A stretch of 33,016 nt of DNA, taken from Clostridia bacterium. GTDB lineage: Bacteria > Bacillota > Clostridia > Christensenellales > CAG-314. Location: positions 1 to 33,016 of the forward strand of contig JAFVXX010000116.1 in the NCBI GenBank assembly GCA_017500905.1, read 5' to 3'. The translations under genes were made by a program, and so were the position numbers. Shown in pieces: positions 3,160 through 30,005 of this stretch; within the stretch, counting starts at the first letter, position 1; each line of letters starts with the position of its first letter. The notes under the pieces are model-generated. The model was not told the origin of the DNA. It made no database searches and worked only from the letters and a program-made list of their open reading frames with translations.

Positions 3160-6100
3160 ATGACAGCAAGAAAATGGAATTACCTAATGAAAACACTTGT
3201 AGTCGTTTTGCTTGTTGCAGTAATCGGCTTTACATTTGTTGCATGTGGTAAAAACAATTCCACTCCTGTCAGCGGAGTATATTACTACGAAGCAGAAGGA
3301 GAGGAATACCAAATCACGCTAAGTGAAGACTTTGGTTTTGTTCTTGATGCCAACGGCGAAATTCGTTCCGGCGAATATTTTGGCGACGGCACAAATTTGC
3401 GTCTTGTCTTTGGCAAGGACGACGAAACCACAGCTACACTTAAGGATGGTGTTTTTAAGCTTACTTACGGCACAGCAACCTTCAACATGTTGCAACGTGT
3501 CAACTACACAGTAACCTTCAACACCAACGGTGGCAATGCAGTTGACGCACAAAAGGTGCTAAACGGCAAAACAGCAACCAAACCGGTTGATCCTACTCGT
3601 GCAAACGACAGATTCTTGGGTTGGTACGTTGACAGCGCATTCAGTGCGCCATTCAACTTTGACACACAAATCATCACTCAAGACACTACCGTTTACGCAA
3701 ACTGGGAGGCAGAAGATCCCAATCAACCAGAGTTTGTTGTAAACTTTGATGCCAACTACCAAGGCGCAGCAGCAGTTGCATCTCAAACAACCTACAACGG
3801 CAAGCTTACAGCATTGCCCGAAGTAACACGTGAGGGATACGAATTTGCAGGCTGGTGGGCAAGCATGGTTGGCACAGGCGACAAGCTTTCCTACCAATGT
3901 GACACAAGCTACGTGTTTGCAAACAACACAACCTTGTACGCAATGTGGGTAGCTACAACGGGCGTTAAGCAACCTGTTGTTACAGTTGCTGGCAATGCTA
4001 TTTCCTGGACAACTACTGCCAACGCAGAGTACGTCTTTGAAGTAACAGGTCCACAAGGCTTTACAGCAATCAGCAAAACAACACAAGCAAACAGCGAGGT
4101 TGTAGACTTTGCAAATGCTCCAGCAGGCGAATACGCAATCAGCGTTGCTGCAAAGGTTGGACAAGAGCAATCTGCTGCAACGGTTGTCTACTACGTAAAC
4201 AAGGGCCTTGCAATGCCCGAGGTTTGGGTAGCAGAGCCTGCAACATTGGTTTACAGCCAAGTTCCAAATGCCGAAAAGTACATTGTTACAATCGAGTGTG
4301 GTAGCCAAGGTCACCAACACTACGTTGACAACGGCAAATCCACAACCCTTCCATTTGCAAACTGCGAAATGAAGGAGGGTGGCATTGTGTTTACCGTTAC
4401 TGCAGTAGCAAACGGCTACGCATCTGCAACCACAACCTACGTTTACGACAAGGTTTTGGCACAAGTTACAGGCGTAGCATTTGACAATGCAACCGAAACT
4501 CTTACTTGGGCACAAGTAGTGGGCGCAACCAACTACCAAGTAACCGTAACTGCAGGTCAACAAACCTACACCTACAACAACGGCACAAGCAACAGCTTCA
4601 GCTTGAAGCAATTTGCTCAAGGCGAAATCAGCGTAGCAATCGTAGCACAAAGCAAGGGCTACAACGCTTCGCAAGCAACAACCTATACATACAACAAGGC
4701 TACAGTAGCAACCCCAAGCAACATCAAGGTTGTTGGCAACCAAATCACTTGGGACGTAGTAGAGGGCGCAACCTACGACGTAAAGGTGGGTTCATCCGTA
4801 TACGCATGCGACACTGCAAGCTTTGACATCACAACCGTTGCAGGCTTGGCAGCAGGCACAAAGTACCAAGTAAGCGTACGTGCAAAGGCTGCAACAACAT
4901 CCAACTGGTCTGATGCTGTTACAGTTGGCTACCAAGTACTTGAAAACGTAAGCTACTACGCAAACGTTGCAACTTGGGACGCTGTAGCAGGCGCAACAAT
5001 GTACAAGGTAAAGGTTACCGGTGCAAGCGAATTTGAAGTAGAAGGCGCAAACTATGCTCCAATCACCTTTACACAAGCCGGTGCAAACACCATCGCAGTA
5101 TGCTTCTACAATGGCAGCCAATGGTCCAACTGGGTAGAAACAACTGTACAAGTATACGCAGTCGAGTTTGACGCACGTCTTGGTGCAGGCGTAGACGCAG
5201 TTTACGTAGCAACAGGCGACACAGTAGATCTTGACGTAACCACACGCAGCGGTTACGACTTTGCAGGTTGGTACAATGCTCCGGGTGGTGCAGCTACAGG
5301 CGCATACAACTACAAGGACGGCTTTGTTTACGACTTGACAACAAGCACAGTTTTGTTTGCAGCTTGGACCCCAATGAAGGCAACAGTATCCTACAACTTC
5401 ATGGGCATGGGCGATGCAACGGACTTTGGTACAACAACCGTAACCTTTGGCGAAGGCTACGCACTTAAGGTTCCAACTCCTCCAAGCACAGCATATTCGT
5501 TTGGTGGCTGGTTCGGCGACATAGCTTGCAGAGACAACAAGCTTACAGACGAGCACGGTAACAGCTTTACAAATTGGGACTACTACCAACCAGAGCGTAC
5601 AGTATACGCAAAGTGGTACCAACTTTTGACCTTTACAAAGCTTAACGATGGCACCTACCGTGTAAAGAAGGGTCCGGACATCAGCAAGGTTAAGGAAGTT
5701 ACAATCCCTGCAGAGTTTGACGGCGTTGCTGTTACACAAATTGCAGGCTTTGCATTTGAAAGATGCTACGAGCTGGAAGTAATCAACATTCCAGACACAA
5801 TCAAGTACATCGACTTGCTTGGTAAGGCATTTGACAAGTGTAGCAGACTTAAGGAAGTAAACGTATACCACGTCGAGGGCAACAATGAAATCGTTTACAA
5901 GTCCGACAACGGTATTTTGTTGGTATACGACAAAAACGGAACACAAAAGCTTGAGCTTGGTTTTGTTCCTGCAACAATGCAAGGCACGTTTGACGTACCT
6001 GCAGGCGTAGAAGTAATCCCAGAAAAGCTCTTTGCAAAGAGCTCCATCACCGAGATTACAATCCCAGCATCCGTCTCCATCATCGAGCCATATGCATTCC

Positions 6101-9100
6101 AAAACTGTGCAAGCCTCAAAAGGGTAACGTTCCTTCCTGCAGCAGAGGGAGAAACACCTGCACAACTTACAATCGGTCAATATGCATTTGCAGGCTGCAA
6201 GGCATTGGAAGAAATTACGTTGCCTGCAAACCTTGTAAATCTTGCTACAACAGAAAGTGGCGAGGTTACAGCATTCAACTCCTGCGTCAAGCTACAAAAC
6301 GTATTTGTTGCAGAGGGTAACCAAAACTACAAAAACCCAATTGACAAAACAGGTATTGTACTTAACAACGAGGGCGTGCTTGTATACGCTCCAAACGCAA
6401 TTACGGGTGCATACACAATCCCAGCAGGCGTTACAGCAATCGGTCCATACACATTTGCACAAGCAAAAGAGCTTACCGAAATTGTAATCCCGGCATGGGT
6501 AACAAGCGTACAACCATACGCATTCTACAACGCAACCAATCTTGGAAAGGTTACGTTTGAAGCAGCACAAGCAAGCTTTGGTGCAGTTACAATTGGCGAA
6601 TACGCATTTGCAAACTGTGCCTTCTTGACAGAGGTTGTATATCAAGCAGGCTCCAACGTAGTCGAGCTTGGCAACAGCGCATTTGCAGGCTGCTCGGCAT
6701 TGATGGCTCTTGAAATCCCAGCAACCGTAACAAAGGTTGGCAACAAGGTATTTAGTGGCTGTGGTGCAAGAACAGCAACAATCGCAGACGGCGAAAATGC
6801 AATCACATTTGGCACAGGCGTTTACGAAAATTGTAAAAATCTTTACGAAATCAAATTGCCGGCACGTGTAACTGCACTACCAGAGGGTGCATTTGCAGGT
6901 TGCGAAAGCTTGCGTAACGTAAAGGTTGACGAAGCAAACACCATCTTGAAGGATATCGACGGTGTATTGTTTACAAAGGACGGCAAGGAATTGTTGTTCT
7001 TCTCGCAAGTTCGTGGTGGCGACTACGAGGTACCGGCAGGCGTTGAAAAGATTGGCGCAGGCGTATTCCAAGACAACACAAGCTTGACAAACATCACGTT
7101 TGGTGCAGACGTCAAGGAAATTGGCGACTACGCATTTGCAGGCTGTACTGCAATTACTAACCTTCACATTGGCGCAAACGTAACACGCATCGGCAAGCAC
7201 GCATTTGATGGCTGCTCGCTTAAGACTGTAACGTTTGATCAAACGGGCACCGAAGAGCTTGTAATTGACGAGTACGCTTTCCAAGCAGGTATCAACAACA
7301 CCAGCACCTCTTCATCTAAGCTCGTTTTGGATATTCCAGCACGTGTAAAGGCAATTGGTAGCTACGCATTCTACAGCGCAAAATTTGTTGGCGTTAAGTT
7401 TAACGAAGGTCTTGTGACCATTGGCGACTACGCATTTGCAAACAACACCTACTTGTACGGCAACGACTACGACGACAAAGCTCGTGGTGGCACGCTTGCA
7501 TTCCCACAATCCGTTACAACAGTTGGAGATTACGCATTCTACAGGTGCTCAAAGCTTACTGTATTGAAGCTTGACACGGTAGAAAACTGGGGTGATTACG
7601 CATTCCGTGATTGTTCAGGTATTTCGGACGTTACGTTCCCAACTGCTTGGGAAGTAATTCCTAAGGGCTTCATGTGGATGTCTTCCTCCTCCGGTTTGAA
7701 GAACTTCAAGGGCACAGTAACAATTGCTAAGACAGTTAAGCAAATTGAGTACCGTGCATTCTACAGCGCATTTACATATGCAGCAGGTCTTGTATTTGAA
7801 GAAGGTGGCACGGCAGACCTTGTCATCGGTACAAAGGGTAAGGAAGACGTTCGTACAGGCGAATGGATTGACAATGGCAACTACTCGTCCGAGGCATTCT
7901 ACTACTTGGGCAAGAGTAACAGCAGCTTCAAGGTTGTAAATCTACCGGATCGTTTGACAATCATTGGTATTGCTTCCTTCAAGGGCGCAAGCAAGATTAC
8001 AACCTTCAACATTTCCGAAAACAGCAAACTTGCCAACATTGGTGAGGAAGCATTCTCCGGATGTAGTGCACTTACAAGCATCTTTATCCCAAGCACGGTT
8101 GTCAACCTGCCACAAACACCGGGCTACGACCAAGCATGTGCTATTGGTTACCGTGCATTCTACAACTGCAGCAAGCTTGCTACAATCACGTTTGAAAAGG
8201 ACGCAACGGCTACAGCAGCAACTGCTCCTTTGACACTTGACAGCCAAGCATTCTACGGCTGCAAGGCAAGCGGCTTTACAACTCTTGATCTTCCAGGCAG
8301 ATTGACCTACAACCTTGATGCAGACGGCGTAAGCTACTTGCTTCCGGGTATGGATCTAAACACCTTCAACGCAACCGACCTAAAGACAATCACAATTGAC
8401 GAAGGCGAAGGCTGCACGTTGATGGCAGAAAACAACATCATCTACTCTGTAGATCAAACACACCTTTACTACGCAGCTCCAAAGCTTACGGGTGATGTTA
8501 CAATTCCAAAGGAAACAACAGACATTGCTAAAAATGCATTCAAGTCCAACACAGGTCTTACAAAGATCATCTTTGAAAAGGGTGGCACGGCAGACCTTGT
8601 AATCGGCGACTCTGCATTTGAAGGCTGCACAAATATTACCGAAGCAGCAATGCCGGAGCGTGTTGTAACAATCGGCAGCAGAGCATTCTACAACTGCAAG
8701 CTTCTTCCATCCATCTACGTACCGGCATCCGTAACATCAATTGGCAGCAGTGCGTTCCAAGGTAGCGGCATGACTTACACCAGCATTGAGTTTGGACGTA
8801 ACGATGACGGCACAGTCAACTTCAAGAGCATTCCAAACAGCATGTTTAACGCATGGGAAGGCATGACCGAATGGGAAGTTCCGGAGGGCGTTGAAACAGT
8901 TGGTTCGGACTTTATTGCAAACACCAGCTTGCGTGATTCAATCACAAAGCTTACATTCCCAAGCACGTTGACAAGCATCAACAACCCAACAACCAACAGA
9001 CAAGTTTTGTATTCATTTGTTGGCTTGACGGAGGTTGTATTTAACAACAACAATGCACTTAAGTGCGAAGACGGCGCAATCTACACCAAGGACGGCGCAA

Positions 9101-11532
9101 CACTTCTTGCTGTACTACTTGGTATCGAACGTGACGAGTTTGTCGTAGCAGAAGGCACTGCAGAAGTTGCACCAAATGCATTCCAAAAGACAGACATCGC
9201 AAAGATTGTAATTGCAAGCACAGTTCAAAAGTTAAACAAAGCATTCGGTCAAAGCTACGTTGAAGACATCCAAATCCTTGACGGTGACATTCCATTGGTT
9301 CTTAACGGAGCTTTCGATAGCGTTCAATACGTAGATGAGATCACCATTCCTGCACGTGCAGTATCCATGATCAACTACCCACTGAGCTACTCCTACATCA
9401 AGAAGGTAAGCTTTGCTCCAAACTCCAAAATGGAAACAATGGGCGACATCTTCTGCTTTGCTTTGGGATTGGAAGAGATCTTCATTCCAAAGTCGGTAAA
9501 GACAATTACGATGTTGGAAGAGTTTAGCACTCCAACCTTGAAGAAGGTTGAGTTTGAGGAAGGTAGCCAACTTACCGAATGGGGCGTATTGTACGGCTTC
9601 TTGGAAGCTAAGTTGCTGCCTGACAAGCTTTGGGAGACAACAGATATCAATGGCGACGGCGTAGTCAACGGTGACGACATTGTTTTGACTCCTGTTGAAG
9701 TAATCAACTTCCCATTTGAAACAGTTTTGACTTATGCAGAGGGCTCGTTGGCAAACAGCACCATCACAAAGGCTAACTTTGCAGAAGGTCTTACAACCGT
9801 TCCTGCAAACTTGTTTAGCTTCTACCAAGATGAACAGGTCTTCTACAGAAAGAACTTCGTAACCGAGGTTACAATCCCAAGTACAGCTACAAGCATTGGT
9901 GCAAATGCATTTGCATACACAGGCATCACTGAAATGGTACTTCCGGAAGGCTTGTTGTCCATTGGCGACGGCGCATTTGAAGGCTGCAAACAGCTTACAA
10001 GCATCACGTGGCCAAGCACCTTGGAGCGCATCGGTAAGAGAGCGTTTAAGGATTGCGTAGGCTTGACAACCGTTACACTTGCTAACACACTTGTCAACGG
10101 CCCAGATCCAGCAGGTAGTGCTCGTGACGCAGAGCTTGGTCTTGACGACAGCGCATTTGAAAACTGCGTCAATCTTGAACAAGTTACGTTTACCGAAGGC
10201 GGCACAGCAGGCTTCTCCATCGGTAAGTACGCATTCAAAAACACACCAAAGCTTACAAGCATCACATTCCCAGAAAGACTTGTTGACGGCTTCTACTCCA
10301 ACAACGCCAACGGTGTTGACGAAGGCTTCATCCGTGAAGGCGCATTCCAAGGCTCCGGCTTGACAGAGGTTGTTCTTCCATACTCGCTAAGCTGCAAGAC
10401 ACTTGGTGTAAGAGCATTTGCAGATTGTGCAAACTTGACAAGCGTAACACTTGGCTACGGCATTGAAATGGTTAGCGAATACGCATTTGAAAACTGCGCT
10501 AAGCTGGAATACGCATTTATTCCTGCATCGGTTAAGACCTTTACAAATGCATTCTTTGGATGTGACAAGGTTGAACTTGACATTGACGCTGACAACCTTG
10601 ACTTTACAATGGTAAACGGCGTAATGTACAACGCTGCAGAAACTGCTATTATCTACGTAGCAAAAGATGCATCCGGCGAAGTAAATATGCCAAACACAGT
10701 AAAGACTGTTGCTCAAGGTGCATTCAAGGGCATTGCAGGCATTACTTCTGTAAAATTGAGCACCGCTTTGACAGCTGTAGAGGACTACATGTTTGAAGGC
10801 TCGGGCGTTACAAGCGTAGTAATTCCAAACGGCGTAACAACCATTGGCAAAAATGCATTTAAGAATTGCGTAAATCTTCAAACCGTAACCTTTGAAAAGG
10901 GCGGCACAAAGAATTTGACAATCGGCGAAGCTGCATTCCAAGGTTGTACGTCTCTACTTGCAGTAGAAATCCCAGATCGTTGCCGTTCTAACTCTAACGC
11001 AAGCAACCCAGTATATGCAGTTGGCAACAACGCATTCCAAGGTTGTACAGCATTGGCAAGTGTAACTTTTGAAGAACACACCGAAACAAGTGCGTTTGAA
11101 GAACTTTACTTATCCGGTATCCCAACAGACGTATTGACAATTGGCCATTACGCATTCCAAGGTTGTACGTCCTTGACAACAATCTCCTTCCCATACAGAT
11201 TGTTGGATGCTAACAGAGCAAATGGTGTTGTTGCTATCGGTAACTTCGCATTTGACGGTTGTACACAACTTGCAACTGTAAACTTCTGGACAAATCCAGA
11301 TACAGGCGATGTCGGTACATGGCACAGCTCTTACATTGCAATGGGTGGTAACGCATTTACGAATACTGCTTTGACAACTATCCGCATCCCATACAACACC
11401 GAATTTGCAAGAGCAACTAGCGAGGGTGGCGGATACTACGGCATTAAGTACTTCAATGGCGAGTGGGCTTCTTACACAATGGAAGGTCCATTTGTAAACG
11501 AAGGCGTTGAAATTACATACGGTGCAAACTAA
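3160..11532 (+). CDS. Giant BspA-like leucine-rich-repeat surface lipoprotein
   Basis: This is a 2790-residue secreted protein. AGGAGG at 3146-3151 sets the start at 3160. A signal peptide ends in FVAC with Cys29 as the likely lipidated residue. Two InlB/Listeria-Bacteroides-type repeats follow, at about 116-183 and 191-263 (ending in YANW and YAMW). Next come about five fibronectin-III-like units at about 266-665, then two more InlB-type repeats at about 668-739 and 742-821. From about 830 to 2760 there are dozens of BspA-type leucine-rich repeats (LRR_5), with recurrent YAFAGC, IP..V..IG and similar motifs. Six beta-hairpin spacer modules of the type DGVLFTKDGKELL interrupt the array at about 910, 1065, 1266, 1759, 1972 and 2486. 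A single dockerin-like calcium loop starts at residue 2162. No sorting signal is present at the C-terminus, so anchoring is by lipid only. BspA-type proteins mediate adhesion and host or matrix binding in other organisms; the ligand here is unknown. Confidence 0.9.
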   Translation: MTARKWNYLMKTLVVVLLVAVIGFTFVACGKNNSTPVSGVYYYEAEGEEYQITLSEDFGFVLDANGEIRSGEYFGDGTNLRLVFGKDDETTATLKDGVFKLTYGTATFNMLQRVNYTVTFNTNGGNAVDAQKVLNGKTATKPVDPTRANDRFLGWYVDSAFSAPFNFDTQIITQDTTVYANWEAEDPNQPEFVVNFDANYQGAAAVASQTTYNGKLTALPEVTREGYEFAGWWASMVGTGDKLSYQCDTSYVFANNTTLYAMWVATTGVKQPVVTVAGNAISWTTTANAEYVFEVTGPQGFTAISKTTQANSEVVDFANAPAGEYAISVAAKVGQEQSAATVVYYVNKGLAMPEVWVAEPATLVYSQVPNAEKYIVTIECGSQGHQHYVDNGKSTTLPFANCEMKEGGIVFTVTAVANGYASATTTYVYDKVLAQVTGVAFDNATETLTWAQVVGATNYQVTVTAGQQTYTYNNGTSNSFSLKQFAQGEISVAIVAQSKGYNASQATTYTYNKATVATPSNIKVVGNQITWDVVEGATYDVKVGSSVYACDTASFDITTVAGLAAGTKYQVSVRAKAATTSNWSDAVTVGYQVLENVSYYANVATWDAVAGATMYKVKVTGASEFEVEGANYAPITFTQAGANTIAVCFYNGSQWSNWVETTVQVYAVEFDARLGAGVDAVYVATGDTVDLDVTTRSGYDFAGWYNAPGGAATGAYNYKDGFVYDLTTSTVLFAAWTPMKATVSYNFMGMGDATDFGTTTVTFGEGYALKVPTPPSTAYSFGGWFGDIACRDNKLTDEHGNSFTNWDYYQPERTVYAKWYQLLTFTKLNDGTYRVKKGPDISKVKEVTIPAEFDGVAVTQIAGFAFERCYELEVINIPDTIKYIDLLGKAFDKCSRLKEVNVYHVEGNNEIVYKSDNGILLVYDKNGTQKLELGFVPATMQGTFDVPAGVEVIPEKLFAKSSITEITIPASVSIIEPYAFQNCASLKRVTFLPAAEGETPAQLTIGQYAFAGCKALEEITLPANLVNLATTESGEVTAFNSCVKLQNVFVAEGNQNYKNPIDKTGIVLNNEGVLVYAPNAITGAYTIPAGVTAIGPYTFAQAKELTEIVIPAWVTSVQPYAFYNATNLGKVTFEAAQASFGAVTIGEYAFANCAFLTEVVYQAGSNVVELGNSAFAGCSALMALEIPATVTKVGNKVFSGCGARTATIADGENAITFGTGVYENCKNLYEIKLPARVTALPEGAFAGCESLRNVKVDEANTILKDIDGVLFTKDGKELLFFSQVRGGDYEVPAGVEKIGAGVFQDNTSLTNITFGADVKEIGDYAFAGCTAITNLHIGANVTRIGKHAFDGCSLKTVTFDQTGTEELVIDEYAFQAGINNTSTSSSKLVLDIPARVKAIGSYAFYSAKFVGVKFNEGLVTIGDYAFANNTYLYGNDYDDKARGGTLAFPQSVTTVGDYAFYRCSKLTVLKLDTVENWGDYAFRDCSGISDVTFPTAWEVIPKGFMWMSSSSGLKNFKGTVTIAKTVKQIEYRAFYSAFTYAAGLVFEEGGTADLVIGTKGKEDVRTGEWIDNGNYSSEAFYYLGKSNSSFKVVNLPDRLTIIGIASFKGASKITTFNISENSKLANIGEEAFSGCSALTSIFIPSTVVNLPQTPGYDQACAIGYRAFYNCSKLATITFEKDATATAATAPLTLDSQAFYGCKASGFTTLDLPGRLTYNLDADGVSYLLPGMDLNTFNATDLKTITIDEGEGCTLMAENNIIYSVDQTHLYYAAPKLTGDVTIPKETTDIAKNAFKSNTGLTKIIFEKGGTADLVIGDSAFEGCTNITEAAMPERVVTIGSRAFYNCKLLPSIYVPASVTSIGSSAFQGSGMTYTSIEFGRNDDGTVNFKSIPNSMFNAWEGMTEWEVPEGVETVGSDFIANTSLRDSITKLTFPSTLTSINNPTTNRQVLYSFVGLTEVVFNNNNALKCEDGAIYTKDGATLLAVLLGIERDEFVVAEGTAEVAPNAFQKTDIAKIVIASTVQKLNKAFGQSYVEDIQILDGDIPLVLNGAFDSVQYVDEITIPARAVSMINYPLSYSYIKKVSFAPNSKMETMGDIFCFALGLEEIFIPKSVKTITMLEEFSTPTLKKVEFEEGSQLTEWGVLYGFLEAKLLPDKLWETTDINGDGVVNGDDIVLTPVEVINFPFETVLTYAEGSLANSTITKANFAEGLTTVPANLFSFYQDEQVFYRKNFVTEVTIPSTATSIGANAFAYTGITEMVLPEGLLSIGDGAFEGCKQLTSITWPSTLERIGKRAFKDCVGLTTVTLANTLVNGPDPAGSARDAELGLDDSAFENCVNLEQVTFTEGGTAGFSIGKYAFKNTPKLTSITFPERLVDGFYSNNANGVDEGFIREGAFQGSGLTEVVLPYSLSCKTLGVRAFADCANLTSVTLGYGIEMVSEYAFENCAKLEYAFIPASVKTFTNAFFGCDKVELDIDADNLDFTMVNGVMYNAAETAIIYVAKDASGEVNMPNTVKTVAQGAFKGIAGITSVKLSTALTAVEDYMFEGSGVTSVVIPNGVTTIGKNAFKNCVNLQTVTFEKGGTKNLTIGEAAFQGCTSLLAVEIPDRCRSNSNASNPVYAVGNNAFQGCTALASVTFEEHTETSAFEELYLSGIPTDVLTIGHYAFQGCTSLTTISFPYRLLDANRANGVVAIGNFAFDGCTQLATVNFWTNPDTGDVGTWHSSYIAMGGNAFTNTALTTIRIPYNTEFARATSEGGGYYGIKYFNGEWASYTMEGPFVNEGVEITYGAN
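9643..9681 (+). other. Dockerin-like Ca2+-binding loop inside the BspA-like protein
   Basis: Residues 2162-2174 read DINGDGVVNGDDI. This matches the type I dockerin EF-hand-like loop, D-x-N-x-D-G-x-V-N-x-x-D, at every ligand position (1, 3, 5, 9, 12). Only one loop is present, whereas true dockerins carry two, so calcium binding or structural stabilisation is more likely than cohesin docking. Confidence 0.65.
10933..11171 (+). repeat. Near-identical LRR unit cores in the BspA-like gene
   Basis: GCATTCCAAGGTTGTAC occurs at 10933, 11032 and 11152, spaced by 99 and 120 bases, each encoding AFQGCT at the same point of an LRR unit. The spacing is in whole codons, so recombination between copies would keep the frame. 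Confidence 0.7.
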
Positions 11533-19523: not shown

Positions 19524-22232
19524 ATGAAAAAATTCAGGGTAGTCCTGATATGTATAATATGCCTGTGCGTAATGCTGTCCCTTACGGCGTGTGCCAAGAT
19601 TAAGCTTGCAACGCCCATAGGTGTACGTATCAATTACGACAAGCTTATGCTAAACTGGGTTTCGGTAAACGATGCCGTTGCATACGAGGTTTCGGTGGAC
19701 GGCGAAGTGGTTGAGGAGGTACGCAAAACCAGTTGGGATATGTCGTTTATGGCTCCGGGCGAATACCAAATTGCCGTGCGCGCCGTGGGTGATGGAAACG
19801 TCACAAAAACGTCCGAGTGGTCTCAACCCGTACAGTTTATCAGAGATGCAGAAACAGGATTGGAGTTTAAGCTTTACAACAATTCTTCCGAATATATGGT
19901 TGTTGGTATAGGCAAATCGGGCGCAAACGTTGTCATTCCCGAATACTATCGCCAAAAGCCCGTCACAAGGATTTACGAAGCGGCTTTTGCCAACCATACA
20001 CGTGTCAAATCTGTGGTAGTAGGCTCCAACGTCACCGTAATTGACGACAAGGCGTTTGACAACTGCTCATTTATGGAAACAATCACCTTTTTGGCTGATG
20101 AAATGCAGTCCATTGGCGCAAACGCTTTTCAACGCTGCTGGGCATTGAAGGAAATTACAATCCCCAAGGGAATTACCACCATTGGCCCGTACACCTTCAA
20201 TTACTGCAAAGCGCTGGAAAAAGTGACCTTCAACGACGATTTGTACGTCATTGACAGCTACGCCTTTGACGGCTGTTCAAGTCTTAAGGAGGTTGTTTTG
20301 CCCGATTCGGTGGTTGCAATTGGCGAATATGCATTTAACAACTGCGATGAGCTCACATCCGTAACCTTTGGCAAAAATTTGCTTCAGCTTGGGCAATTCA
20401 GCTTTGCTAAGTGCGAAAAGCTTGCAACACTTGATTTTGGCGAAAGCAAGCTGCAAATTGTAGACCAATATGCGTTTACAGAGTGCTCTTCCTTGACAGA
20501 GGTTGCATTGCCCAGCGAGGTAATGGCCTTGGGTAATGCAGTTTTTAGCTTTTGTACCAATTTGGCCTCTGTTACCATTGGTGACAAGGTGCAACACATT
20601 GGCGCATATCTTTTGCACGAAACAGAGCTGCTAAACAAGGCAGAGGGCTTGGTTTATTTGGGCAATTGGCTTGTGTACAACAAGGACCCATTGGCAAGCA
20701 GCGTTGAGTTTAAGGAGGGCACGGTTGGTGTTGCCAACCAAGCCTTTGACAGCAACTCCGGCTTGGTAGTGGTAATTATGCCCGACACCATTAAGTACGT
20801 AGGTGCCTACGCATTTGTTGATTGTACCTCTTTGATGAGCGTTACGCTTAGCAATCAGCTTACCGAAGTACCATCTCATGCATTTAGTGGTTGTATCAAT
20901 TTGATTTCAGTAGTTTTTGGCTCAGAGATTGAATCTATTGGGCAGTACGCATTTTACAATTGCAGCAGTCTTTTAAACATAACGTTGCCTAATTCGGTTA
21001 CGAAAGTTGGATTGTATGCATTTAGACATACAAAGCTTTGGACGGACAGCACTCCGGGCGACTTTGTTTACGTTGGCAACTGGGCAGTAGGCTTTAAGCC
21101 CTCCATGTCGCCCATCATGCCTGAAACCTTTAAGGTAGGTACAGTAGGCATTGCCGATTACGCATTTTACGAAATGGAAGCAAACTACGTCACATTCCCA
21201 ACAACAATACAGTACTTGGGCGATTACAGCTTCTTCCGTGTCAGTATGGTATATCTAAAGCTGTCCAGCAGCCTCAAAAAGGTTGGTGACTATGCGTTTT
21301 TCCAATGCGTCGACCTTATGGAGGTGGTCATCCCTGAGGGTGTCGAGGAAATAGGTCGTTCGGCATTTTACCAAATTCAAGCAACCAACATACAATTGCC
21401 TCAATCAGTAAAGACAATTGGCATGTACGCATTTTACAGGCCTGCCAAGCTTATAACCGTCAATCTTGGTGGTGTCGAAACAATCGGCAGAGGAGCATTT
21501 TACAACGCACCATATCTAAGCGAGCTTGTGCTGCCTCAATCCACAAAGATTGTCGAGTCGTACGCATTTTACGGGGCTGCGACAATGGAAGCATTGACTC
21601 TAAACGAGGGATTGCAGGAAATTGGTGAGTATGCCTTTGCCAAGGCAGCAGCGGTTAAGTCGTTGAAAATCCCAAATAGTGTAACTACCATTGGCAGATA
21701 TGCCTTCAGAGACGCCATTTCTTGTCAAAGCATAGTGCTTGGCAATGCATTGCAAGCTGTTGGTGACGGCGCATTTATGAACAGTGGTGTAACAGCGTTG
21801 ACCGTTGTGGGCAACAACGTAGCCTTTGGTAAATATGTCTTCCGTGGATGCACCGATTTGCAAAGTGTGGTAATTACCGACTCTGTAAAATCTTTTGATA
21901 TGCATGCTTTTTACGGAAGTAAAAAAGCAACGTTCTTCATCGAAAACAACACCGACATGACAAACTGGAACGCAAGGTGGAACAGCTCTAAGGGTCCGGT
22001 TTTGTCGGGTGTAAACCTTTCGGCAGACAATTCGTACGTCGAAAGCTTTGTAAAAACAAATGACACTTTGGTGGTGGATACAGGCAAGGTTGCCTGTGCC
22101 CCTGTACGTGACGGCTTCGTCTTTGCAGGCTGGTCTACCACTTTGGGTGGAGCAAAAGAGTACACAATGGACACGTTGAAAACTGCCCCAGACGGCACAA
22201 CGTTGTACGCTTTGTGGGAGCCTAATGCGTAG
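19524..22232 (+). CDS. BspA-like leucine-rich-repeat lipoprotein
   Basis: This is a 902-residue protein; AAGGAG at 19513-19518 sets the start. The signal peptide ends in the lipobox LTAC with Cys23 as the lipidation site. A fibronectin-III-like unit follows at about 28-110 (LNWVSVNDAVAYEVSVDG). BspA-type leucine-rich repeats run from about 115 to 800, with YAF..C and IP..V..IG motifs. A truncated InlB-type repeat closes the protein (GFVFAGWST ... LYALWEPNA). The order is the reverse of the giant protein at 3160, where InlB repeats come first. It is 58 bases behind the vWA gene and 24 bases ahead of the next lipoprotein gene, in the same direction, so it probably belongs to the MoxR operon. 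Adhesion or a surface-receptor role is inferred from the family. Confidence 0.9.
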   Translation: MKKFRVVLICIICLCVMLSLTACAKIKLATPIGVRINYDKLMLNWVSVNDAVAYEVSVDGEVVEEVRKTSWDMSFMAPGEYQIAVRAVGDGNVTKTSEWSQPVQFIRDAETGLEFKLYNNSSEYMVVGIGKSGANVVIPEYYRQKPVTRIYEAAFANHTRVKSVVVGSNVTVIDDKAFDNCSFMETITFLADEMQSIGANAFQRCWALKEITIPKGITTIGPYTFNYCKALEKVTFNDDLYVIDSYAFDGCSSLKEVVLPDSVVAIGEYAFNNCDELTSVTFGKNLLQLGQFSFAKCEKLATLDFGESKLQIVDQYAFTECSSLTEVALPSEVMALGNAVFSFCTNLASVTIGDKVQHIGAYLLHETELLNKAEGLVYLGNWLVYNKDPLASSVEFKEGTVGVANQAFDSNSGLVVVIMPDTIKYVGAYAFVDCTSLMSVTLSNQLTEVPSHAFSGCINLISVVFGSEIESIGQYAFYNCSSLLNITLPNSVTKVGLYAFRHTKLWTDSTPGDFVYVGNWAVGFKPSMSPIMPETFKVGTVGIADYAFYEMEANYVTFPTTIQYLGDYSFFRVSMVYLKLSSSLKKVGDYAFFQCVDLMEVVIPEGVEEIGRSAFYQIQATNIQLPQSVKTIGMYAFYRPAKLITVNLGGVETIGRGAFYNAPYLSELVLPQSTKIVESYAFYGAATMEALTLNEGLQEIGEYAFAKAAAVKSLKIPNSVTTIGRYAFRDAISCQSIVLGNALQAVGDGAFMNSGVTALTVVGNNVAFGKYVFRGCTDLQSVVITDSVKSFDMHAFYGSKKATFFIENNTDMTNWNARWNSSKGPVLSGVNLSADNSYVESFVKTNDTLVVDTGKVACAPVRDGFVFAGWSTTLGGAKEYTMDTLKTAPDGTTLYALWEPNA

Positions 22233-28347: not shown

Positions 28348-28394
28348 CACAACAAGCCTAAATGGGCTTTGACAAACACAAAAGGAGAAGGCTT

Positions 28395-30005
28395 ATGAAA
28401 AAATCCATTGCTCTAATTTTGACGGCAGCGTTGTTGTTTGCTTTGACAACCTGTATGCTTACAGGCTGCAGCAAGCTGCCCGAAAAGCATCTCATTTTGG
28501 ATGCAGACGGCAACTACGGTGGCACGCTTGACGCAGCTCGCTACGGCGAGGGCGCACCACTAAACGGCATGTACGATCAAAAAAACTCGCAGTACTTTAC
28601 CGCTCCCGATTACTACAACATGCCAAGCACGGCAACTCGCACAATTTTCCCCAACTTTGCGCCTTATCAACAAACAATGAAGGATAGCAGTGGTGTTGCT
28701 TGCGCTTTGATGCTACTAAACTACTTTGGCGAAGACGTCAAAAACACCTACAACGAGTTGGCATTGGTAAACAAGTACGAGCAGCTTAACCAAGCCACCG
28801 TGTACGGCAACGGAACAACGGCCGACGGCCTTGTAAATTTGTTTACCGACCTTGGCTACGAGGCAGTTTCGGAAGAGTACGTGGAGTACTCGGCAGCAAC
28901 CGATGACAAAATTACTGACTTCAACATGTGGTTGGAAATGTACATCAACGATGGCAACTTTGTTTTGGTTAGATACAGAGACGACGTCAACGTTGGTTGG
29001 CACGTCATCATTGGCTACGACAACATGGGCACACCCAGCATCCCCAAGGACGACGTAATCATCTTTGCCGATCCATGGGACGGCTGGGACCACTACCAAG
29101 ACGGCTACACAACAAGTGGCTCGGGACGTTTTTACAGATGGTGGTTTGACAGCATCGAGTACACCGACGACGGCACAAAAATTACTCCAAGCCAAACCCG
29201 TGCGTTTGAAAACGTAATCGTAACCCCAAAGACACCAATTACCTTTGAACGTGTCGAAACGGACACCATGCCTACGCAAAAGGTGCCCGAGCATCACATG
29301 CTTCTTAATGCTGACGGCAGCTACGGTGGCACAACCAACGGCCTATTGTATGGCTCCATCAAGGAGAAAAACGGCTCGTCCGACCACTTGGACAAAACTT
29401 ACTACAAGTTTGTAGATTACTACAACATGAAGAGTACCTCCAGCCGTGTTATGCTTACCAATTACCGTGCATATCAACAAACCATGGCATCGTCTTGTGG
29501 TATTGCTGCAACAATGTCGGTGCTTAACTACTACGGACACGACATCGTTGGTACCTACAACGAAATTGCCCTTGTAGACAAGTATCACGAGCTTAACACC
29601 AACGAGCCCAACATCAAGGGTGTTGGCACAACCAGATTTGGTTTGCAAAAGATGCTGCAACACTACGGCTTTGATGCAACCATCACCCCTTACGAAAAGG
29701 AGGGCGACATCTACTTTGATACCTACCAAGCCTTTGTTGCTTGGGCAAAGGACGGACTAAGCAAGGGTATGCCTTTGACGATTTGCTTCAAGCCACACAG
29801 TGGTCACTGGGAAGTAATCATTGGCTACGACGACATGGGCACTCCATACGTGTACGACGACGTAGTAGTGCTTGCCGACCCTCACGACACCTTTGACCAC
29901 TACCAAGACGGCTACAACACCTTGTCGGCAATGACCTTTTACAGTCAATGGTACAACGGCAATTACAAGTGGCCACAAAAGTTTGTAATTTACCCAAACA
30001 AGTAA
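28395..30005 (+). CDS. Lipoprotein with two C39-like peptidase domains, the first lacking the catalytic Cys
   Basis: This protein has 536 residues from the ATG at 28395, which AAAGGAG at 28381-28387 supports; the in-frame ATG at 28362 lies upstream of that site. The lipobox is LTGC with Cys25. Two homologous halves each carry YYNM, YQQTM, LNYFGED/LNYYGHD, WHVIIGYD/WEVIIGYD, ADP and DHYQDGY. In the second half the papain-like triad is complete: Cys368 in SSCGIAA, His471 in SGHWEV and Asp495 in ADPHD. In the first half the Cys position is Ser99 (SSGVACA) while His203 and Asp226 remain. The first domain is therefore probably a non-catalytic copy, perhaps for binding. C39-type domains cleave peptides, often after double glycine. 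This one would act outside the cell, and its substrate is unknown. Confidence 0.85.
   Translation: MKKSIALILTAALLFALTTCMLTGCSKLPEKHLILDADGNYGGTLDAARYGEGAPLNGMYDQKNSQYFTAPDYYNMPSTATRTIFPNFAPYQQTMKDSSGVACALMLLNYFGEDVKNTYNELALVNKYEQLNQATVYGNGTTADGLVNLFTDLGYEAVSEEYVEYSAATDDKITDFNMWLEMYINDGNFVLVRYRDDVNVGWHVIIGYDNMGTPSIPKDDVIIFADPWDGWDHYQDGYTTSGSGRFYRWWFDSIEYTDDGTKITPSQTRAFENVIVTPKTPITFERVETDTMPTQKVPEHHMLLNADGSYGGTTNGLLYGSIKEKNGSSDHLDKTYYKFVDYYNMKSTSSRVMLTNYRAYQQTMASSCGIAATMSVLNYYGHDIVGTYNEIALVDKYHELNTNEPNIKGVGTTRFGLQKMLQHYGFDATITPYEKEGDIYFDTYQAFVAWAKDGLSKGMPLTICFKPHSGHWEVIIGYDDMGTPYVYDDVVVLADPHDTFDHYQDGYNTLSAMTFYSQWYNGNYKWPQKFVIYPNK

Follow-up and report, generated by a model that had tools for sequence, protein, structure and literature searches.

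Peptidases of the C39_2 type have been described as single-domain proteins (PMC10318531). The C39-like domain (CLD) of HlyB is devoid of proteolytic activity and binds unfolded substrate (PMC6363468). SERA5 of Plasmodium carries serine in place of the catalytic cysteine within a papain fold and has a non-enzymatic role (PMC4671257), and menin, DUF2145, DUF2272, and DUF3750 are serine-type papain-like families with a conserved serine at the cysteine position (PMC10318531).

The window (i.e. the whole stretch of 33,016 nucleotides analyzed here) encodes a protein of the Peptidase_C39_2 (PF13529) domain family, to which secreted peptidases and lipoproteins of Bacillota with a single domain also belong. 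Whereas these relatives have one domain with an intact Cys/His/Asp triad, the window protein has two domains, of which the first is very probably dead. Like the CLD of HlyB, domain 1 has a C39 fold without the catalytic cysteine. The CLD, however, is cytosolic and part of an ABC exporter, whereas the window protein is an extracytoplasmic lipoprotein composed of only two C39 domains and has no ABC exporter fused to it. Again unlike the CLD, domain 1 is fused to an active-type C39 domain and has Ser and Gly at the catalytic positions. It shares with the papain-like pseudoprotease SERA5 the serine in the cysteine place, but SERA5 keeps its His, belongs to another family and organism, and has no active twin domain noted in the same chain. 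In the serine-type papain-like families, the remaining two active-site residues are retained. Domain 1 stands outside them because its catalytic His is gone, with Gly at this position in 4/4 orthologs and Asn at the Asp position in 2/4.

The tandem gene and its two domains

The gene and its parts are located as follows.

28395..30005, + strand: tandem C39-type lipoprotein gene, 536 aa (translation, ORF list; PF13529 over the cut-off)
28395..28469, + strand: lipoprotein signal peptide up to the lipobox LTGC (Cys25), read from the sequence
28473..29288, + strand: domain 1 and N-terminal extension (residues 27-298), pseudopeptidase (AlphaFold2, fold matches, HHalign)
29286..30002, + strand: domain 2 (residues 298-536), predicted active C39-type peptidase (PF13529, HHalign)

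Translation showed that the frame 28395-30005 is open; an in-frame ATG upstream at 28362 would add 11 residues before the signal peptide. As read from the sequence, the protein has the signal peptide and lipobox cysteine of a bacterial lipoprotein, with LTGC at residues 22-25, and a signal peptide with Cys also starts the orthologs. Pfam Peptidase_C39_2 (PF13529) matched the protein over the cut-off in two stretches. No match was obtained in an NCBIfam search, and a PDB sequence search returned nothing meaningful. The tandem gene was present as a single copy in the window genome.

The two halves had been proposed to be homologs. This was borne out by 40% identity and by profile-profile comparison with HHalign (probability 100%, E 8e-57). 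Against the single-domain family, domain 1 reached E 5e-44 and domain 2 reached E 3e-43. Domain 1 alone scored 15.5 bits with PF13529, below the gathering cut-off of 24, but its homology was plain by HHalign. Domain 2 alone scored 33.3 bits, above the same cut-off, and its fold assignment is based on this Pfam match together with HHalign.

A C39/papain fold was predicted with confidence for domain 1. AlphaFold2, supplied with the 23-row alignment A2, gave a model of domain 1 alone with pLDDT 82.1 and pTM 0.86, in which Ser99 is the first residue of the nucleophile helix. Comparison of this model with known structures (Foldseek, VIA-align) yielded phytochelatin synthase Alr0975 as the best match (Z 14.7), followed by the C39 peptidase domains of PCAT1, LahT, and ComA (Z 13-14) and staphopain (Z 12.6). 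The predicted structure has a nucleophile helix packed on the His/Asp sheet, as in papain-like (clan CA) folds. The full-length model, built from four rows, was poor (pLDDT 48), and the arrangement of the two domains is not predictable from it.

Domain 2 has the complete Cys/His/Asp triad of PF13529, as had been claimed, and the three residues are invariant in the four orthologs.

29496..29498, + strand: Cys368, predicted nucleophile (Cys in 4/4 orthologs)
29805..29807, + strand: His471, predicted general base (His in 4/4 orthologs)
29877..29879, + strand: Asp495, third triad residue (Asp in 4/4 orthologs)

An extra invariant His468 (PHxGHW; window 29796-29807) was seen in domain 2 of 4/4 tandems, at a place where the single-domain relatives usually read DWGGHW.

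Orthologs and single-domain relatives

Among 41 genomes of the same family-level group, the full tandem occurred in two more genomes (54-55% identity), and a search of genome contigs added one further species, L006 (L005 is the same contig as L003). Four tandem orthologs were thus compared. No further ones turned up among the 41 genomes sampled at family, 396 at order, and 391 at class level; the order- and class-level samples contained only single-domain relatives and one unrelated tandem. The nearest single-domain relatives share QQT..xCG, GHWxVIIGYD, and ADPxDxxDHxQDG, and Cys, His, and Asp were invariant when 18/18 were aligned together. The unrelated tandem, G483 (L031/L034), is a 985-aa secreted protein with Cys and His in both halves. 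Thus, a tandem layout does not by itself bring catalytic loss.

The viral contigs searched contained no relative. A single-domain relative was present on L028 (MT837362.1), deposited as an unverified 'Bacteriophage sp.', which may well be bacterial DNA.

Loss of the catalytic residues in domain 1

The positions of domain 1 that bear on catalysis are listed below.

28671..28673, + strand: Gln93, oxyanion-hole Gln position, kept (invariant across both domains and the single-domain relatives)
28689..28691, + strand: Ser99, codon AGT, nucleophile position (Ser, AGT/AGC, in 4/4 orthologs)
28701..28703, + strand: Cys103, four residues past Ser99 on the same helix (alignment)
28995..28997, + strand: Gly201, opposite the catalytic His (MAFFT, HMMER, HHalign; Gly in 4/4 orthologs)
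29001..29003, + strand: His203, outside the catalytic-His column (His/His/Arg/Arg among orthologs)
29070..29072, + strand: Asp226, third triad position (Asp/Asp/Asn/Asn among orthologs)

The AGT codon of Ser99 was confirmed at 28689-28691. Alignment of the family, which the original prediction had proposed as a check, showed that Ser is conserved in all four tandem orthologs, encoded by AGT or AGC. These AGY codons are one step from TGY. The corresponding column holds Cys in 18/18 single-domain relatives and in both halves of the independent tandem G483. A read error or strain mutation was ruled out by the presence of Ser in four independent genomes. On this sequence comparison, the Ser of domain 1 is an old non-catalytic state and not a recent mutation.

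The general base is lost as well. His203 had been taken for the kept catalytic His, but MAFFT, an HMM of 24 Cys-bearing domains (HMMER), and HHalign agreed in placing Gly201 in that column. The register of the His strand is fixed by VIIGYDxMGTP, common to both domains: G-H471-W-E-V-I-I-G of domain 2 aligned with V-G201-W-H203-V-I-I-G of domain 1, Trp with Trp. Because the shared VIIGYDxMGT set the register in all three methods, Gly201 lies opposite His471, and His203 lies opposite Glu473 of domain 2 (Gln in most of the family). On the same register, we rejected the idea that domain 1 has a Ser-His-Asp triad. The claim of a kept Asp226 held in part: the residue occupies the Asp column in the window protein but is replaced by Asn in 2/4 orthologs.

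Domain 1 lacks the PF13529 triad, with Ser99, Gly201, and Asp/Asn226 at the three positions. Chance was excluded, as 4/4 orthologs have Ser99 and 4/4 have Gly201, whereas 18/18 single-domain relatives have Cys and His at these positions. As both nucleophile and general base are lost, domain 1 is to be regarded as a pseudopeptidase rather than a Ser-His-Asp enzyme, and we consider it very likely that it is catalytically dead and conserved in this state. The triad as originally described was thus right for Ser99, for domain 2, and for the Asp column, and wrong for His203; domain 1 is more degraded than had been claimed. In addition, 4/4 domain 1 copies have lost Pro at position 189 and the Gly preceding His, two residues that do not vary among the single-domain relatives. 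Besides Gln93, domain 1 retains the Gly that follows the nucleophile position, as well as Asp229/Asp232/Asp236/Gly237 of the acidic loop.

The alternative nucleophile suggested as "Cys102" is in fact Cys103 and looks like an ordinary helix residue. A role as substitute nucleophile was unsupported, since a Cys at +4 stands beside the catalytic Cys in the intact-triad relatives G447, G216, G373, and G263. The truncated relative G283 also has a Cys at +4.

An acidic loop of the form DPxDxxDHxQDG starts from the catalytic Asp position at window 29070-29105 and 29877-29912 and in all relatives. The DHNQDG inside this loop in many relatives resembles the calcium-loop motif DxNxDG and is possibly a metal site.

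Origin and conservation of domain 1

In a maximum likelihood tree of 28 domains, the four copies of domain 1 fell into a single clade (100/99), the four of domain 2 into a second (100/97), and all eight domains of the tandem orthologs grouped together (100/100). These clades point to one duplication and a subsequent loss of nucleophile and base in the common ancestor of the four lineages. The end branches of domain 1 were not longer than those of domain 2.

Core identity between orthologs was 54-71% for domain 1 and 49-76% for domain 2. For the closest pair, G034-L006, domain 1 gave pN 0.20 versus pS 0.70; synonymous sites are near saturation in this comparison, and no dN/dS value is claimed. 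Neither stops nor frameshifts were present in domain 1 of the orthologs. Invariant positions made up 22/35 around the dead site of domain 1 versus 58/163 elsewhere (p 0.004), and 22/35 around the live site of domain 2 versus 59/154 elsewhere (p 0.013). The enrichment at the dead site equals that at the live site in degree but is suggestive only, because the active-site segments were chosen by hand from the alignment and are also core fold elements; the conservation seen there may for this reason be structural. Being conserved about as strongly as domain 2, dead site included, domain 1 is probably used, where "conserved" refers to few lineages, namely four orthologs.

Gene context

In three orthologs, a gene for a large lipoprotein with Big_3 Ig-like domains is located 12-14 bp upstream of the tandem gene. 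This partner was not found in the window genome (73.7% complete), where a cysteine-synthase-like PALP gene is upstream of the tandem. Single-domain relatives had no evident shared neighbors when read by eye. Because the Big_3 gene was not found in the window genome and the single-domain relatives lack shared neighbors, the context gives no function.

For one tandem ortholog, the upstream Big_3 lipoprotein genes (L005:5-4862) contain a near-identical repeated stretch (EKDVEYTVDYSAATEISDQQ...), which suggests a recent duplication in the partner gene. By eye, two large lipoproteins in the window (3160-11532 and 19524-22232) resemble BspA-type leucine-rich-repeat surface proteins; a MoxR/DUF58/VWA-like cluster, also recognized by eye, separates the two.

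Discussion

The window protein is a real, conserved pseudopeptidase/peptidase tandem. The original prediction of a pseudo-peptidase joined to an active-looking domain in a lipoprotein stood against both refuting conditions set for it, with Ser conserved and a C39/papain fold predicted for domain 1. An immunity-like binding role found no support.

The explanation that we prefer, with a probability of about 0.5 for the whole, is that dead domain 1 captures a peptide for active domain 2. The tandem, anchored in the membrane outside the cytoplasm and made up of two papain-like domains of the C39_2 type, arose by one duplication in a Clostridia lineage, with domain 2 as a putative working cysteine peptidase or amide-bond hydrolase. 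In domain 1, Cys changed to Ser and His to Gly before the known orthologs diverged, and purifying selection would then have held the domain as a non-catalytic module. Its dead groove, which retains the oxyanion Gln, the nucleophile helix, and the acidic loop, may hold a peptide or a second stretch of substrate and present it to domain 2, as the C39-like domain of HlyB does. By this analogy, the chances are about even that domain 1 acts by binding a ligand, with the substrate of domain 2 in this role. For function we relied on the HlyB and SERA5 precedents because gene context provides none. The groove may also be remodeled rather than kept, since Pro189 and the Gly before His are lost.

Domain 1 might alternatively bind no substrate at all and be the structural half of an intramolecular pseudo-dimer, serving to stabilize domain 2 or to tune it allosterically. 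Direct fusion, common ancestry, and the equal conservation of both domains are consistent with this proposal, as is SERA5, a papain-fold protein in which Ser replaces Cys and whose role is regulatory and not enzymatic (PMC4671257; PMC5500368). We nevertheless hold it to be rather unlikely: the former active site of domain 1 is enriched in invariant positions, a pattern not called for by a contact surface in another part of the domain, and the single-domain relatives give no sign of dimerizing. Slightly more doubtful is a newly gained extracellular binding role, with a specific peptide, a cell-wall stem, or a protein partner as ligand, by which domain 1 would gate domain 2. If true, the cell surface would carry a pseudopeptidase/peptidase switch that works in cis.

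Inhibition of domain 2 in cis, with domain 1 acting in the manner of a propeptide or a built-in inhibitor until its displacement or cleavage, agrees with the N-terminal position and tethering of domain 1 to an active-type domain and with the general observation that inactive homologs can regulate active relatives (PMC11266112). It appears improbable, as the G483 tandem, with its intact Cys and His in both domains, shows that the layout does not require inhibition, and the predicted structure does not define how the domains are arranged.

We give little credence to catalysis by a non-standard centre in domain 1, either Ser99 with His203 or Cys103. His203 does lie on the catalytic-His strand, two residues further on, and there are families in which Ser replaces Cys while the remaining two residues are retained (PMC10318531), but His203 is Arg and Asp226 is Asn in 2/4 orthologs, the His column is Gly in all of them, and Cys103, one helical turn past the nucleophile, accompanies a real Cys in several intact-triad relatives. 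Decay of a functionless domain 1, to which the loss of four family-invariant residues in all orthologs and the change of Asp to Asn in two would conform, is just as implausible in view of core identities about like those of domain 2, pN well below pS, and uninterrupted reading frames.

A pseudoenzyme fused to its active twin is a natural experiment, with the same fold dead and live in one chain. Well-known dead C39 members sit on ABC exporters, whereas the tandem is a small, extracellular, bacterial C39 case. With it, the proposal made for HlyB, that a C39 groove is retained after loss of catalysis because it captures peptides, could be put to a direct test.
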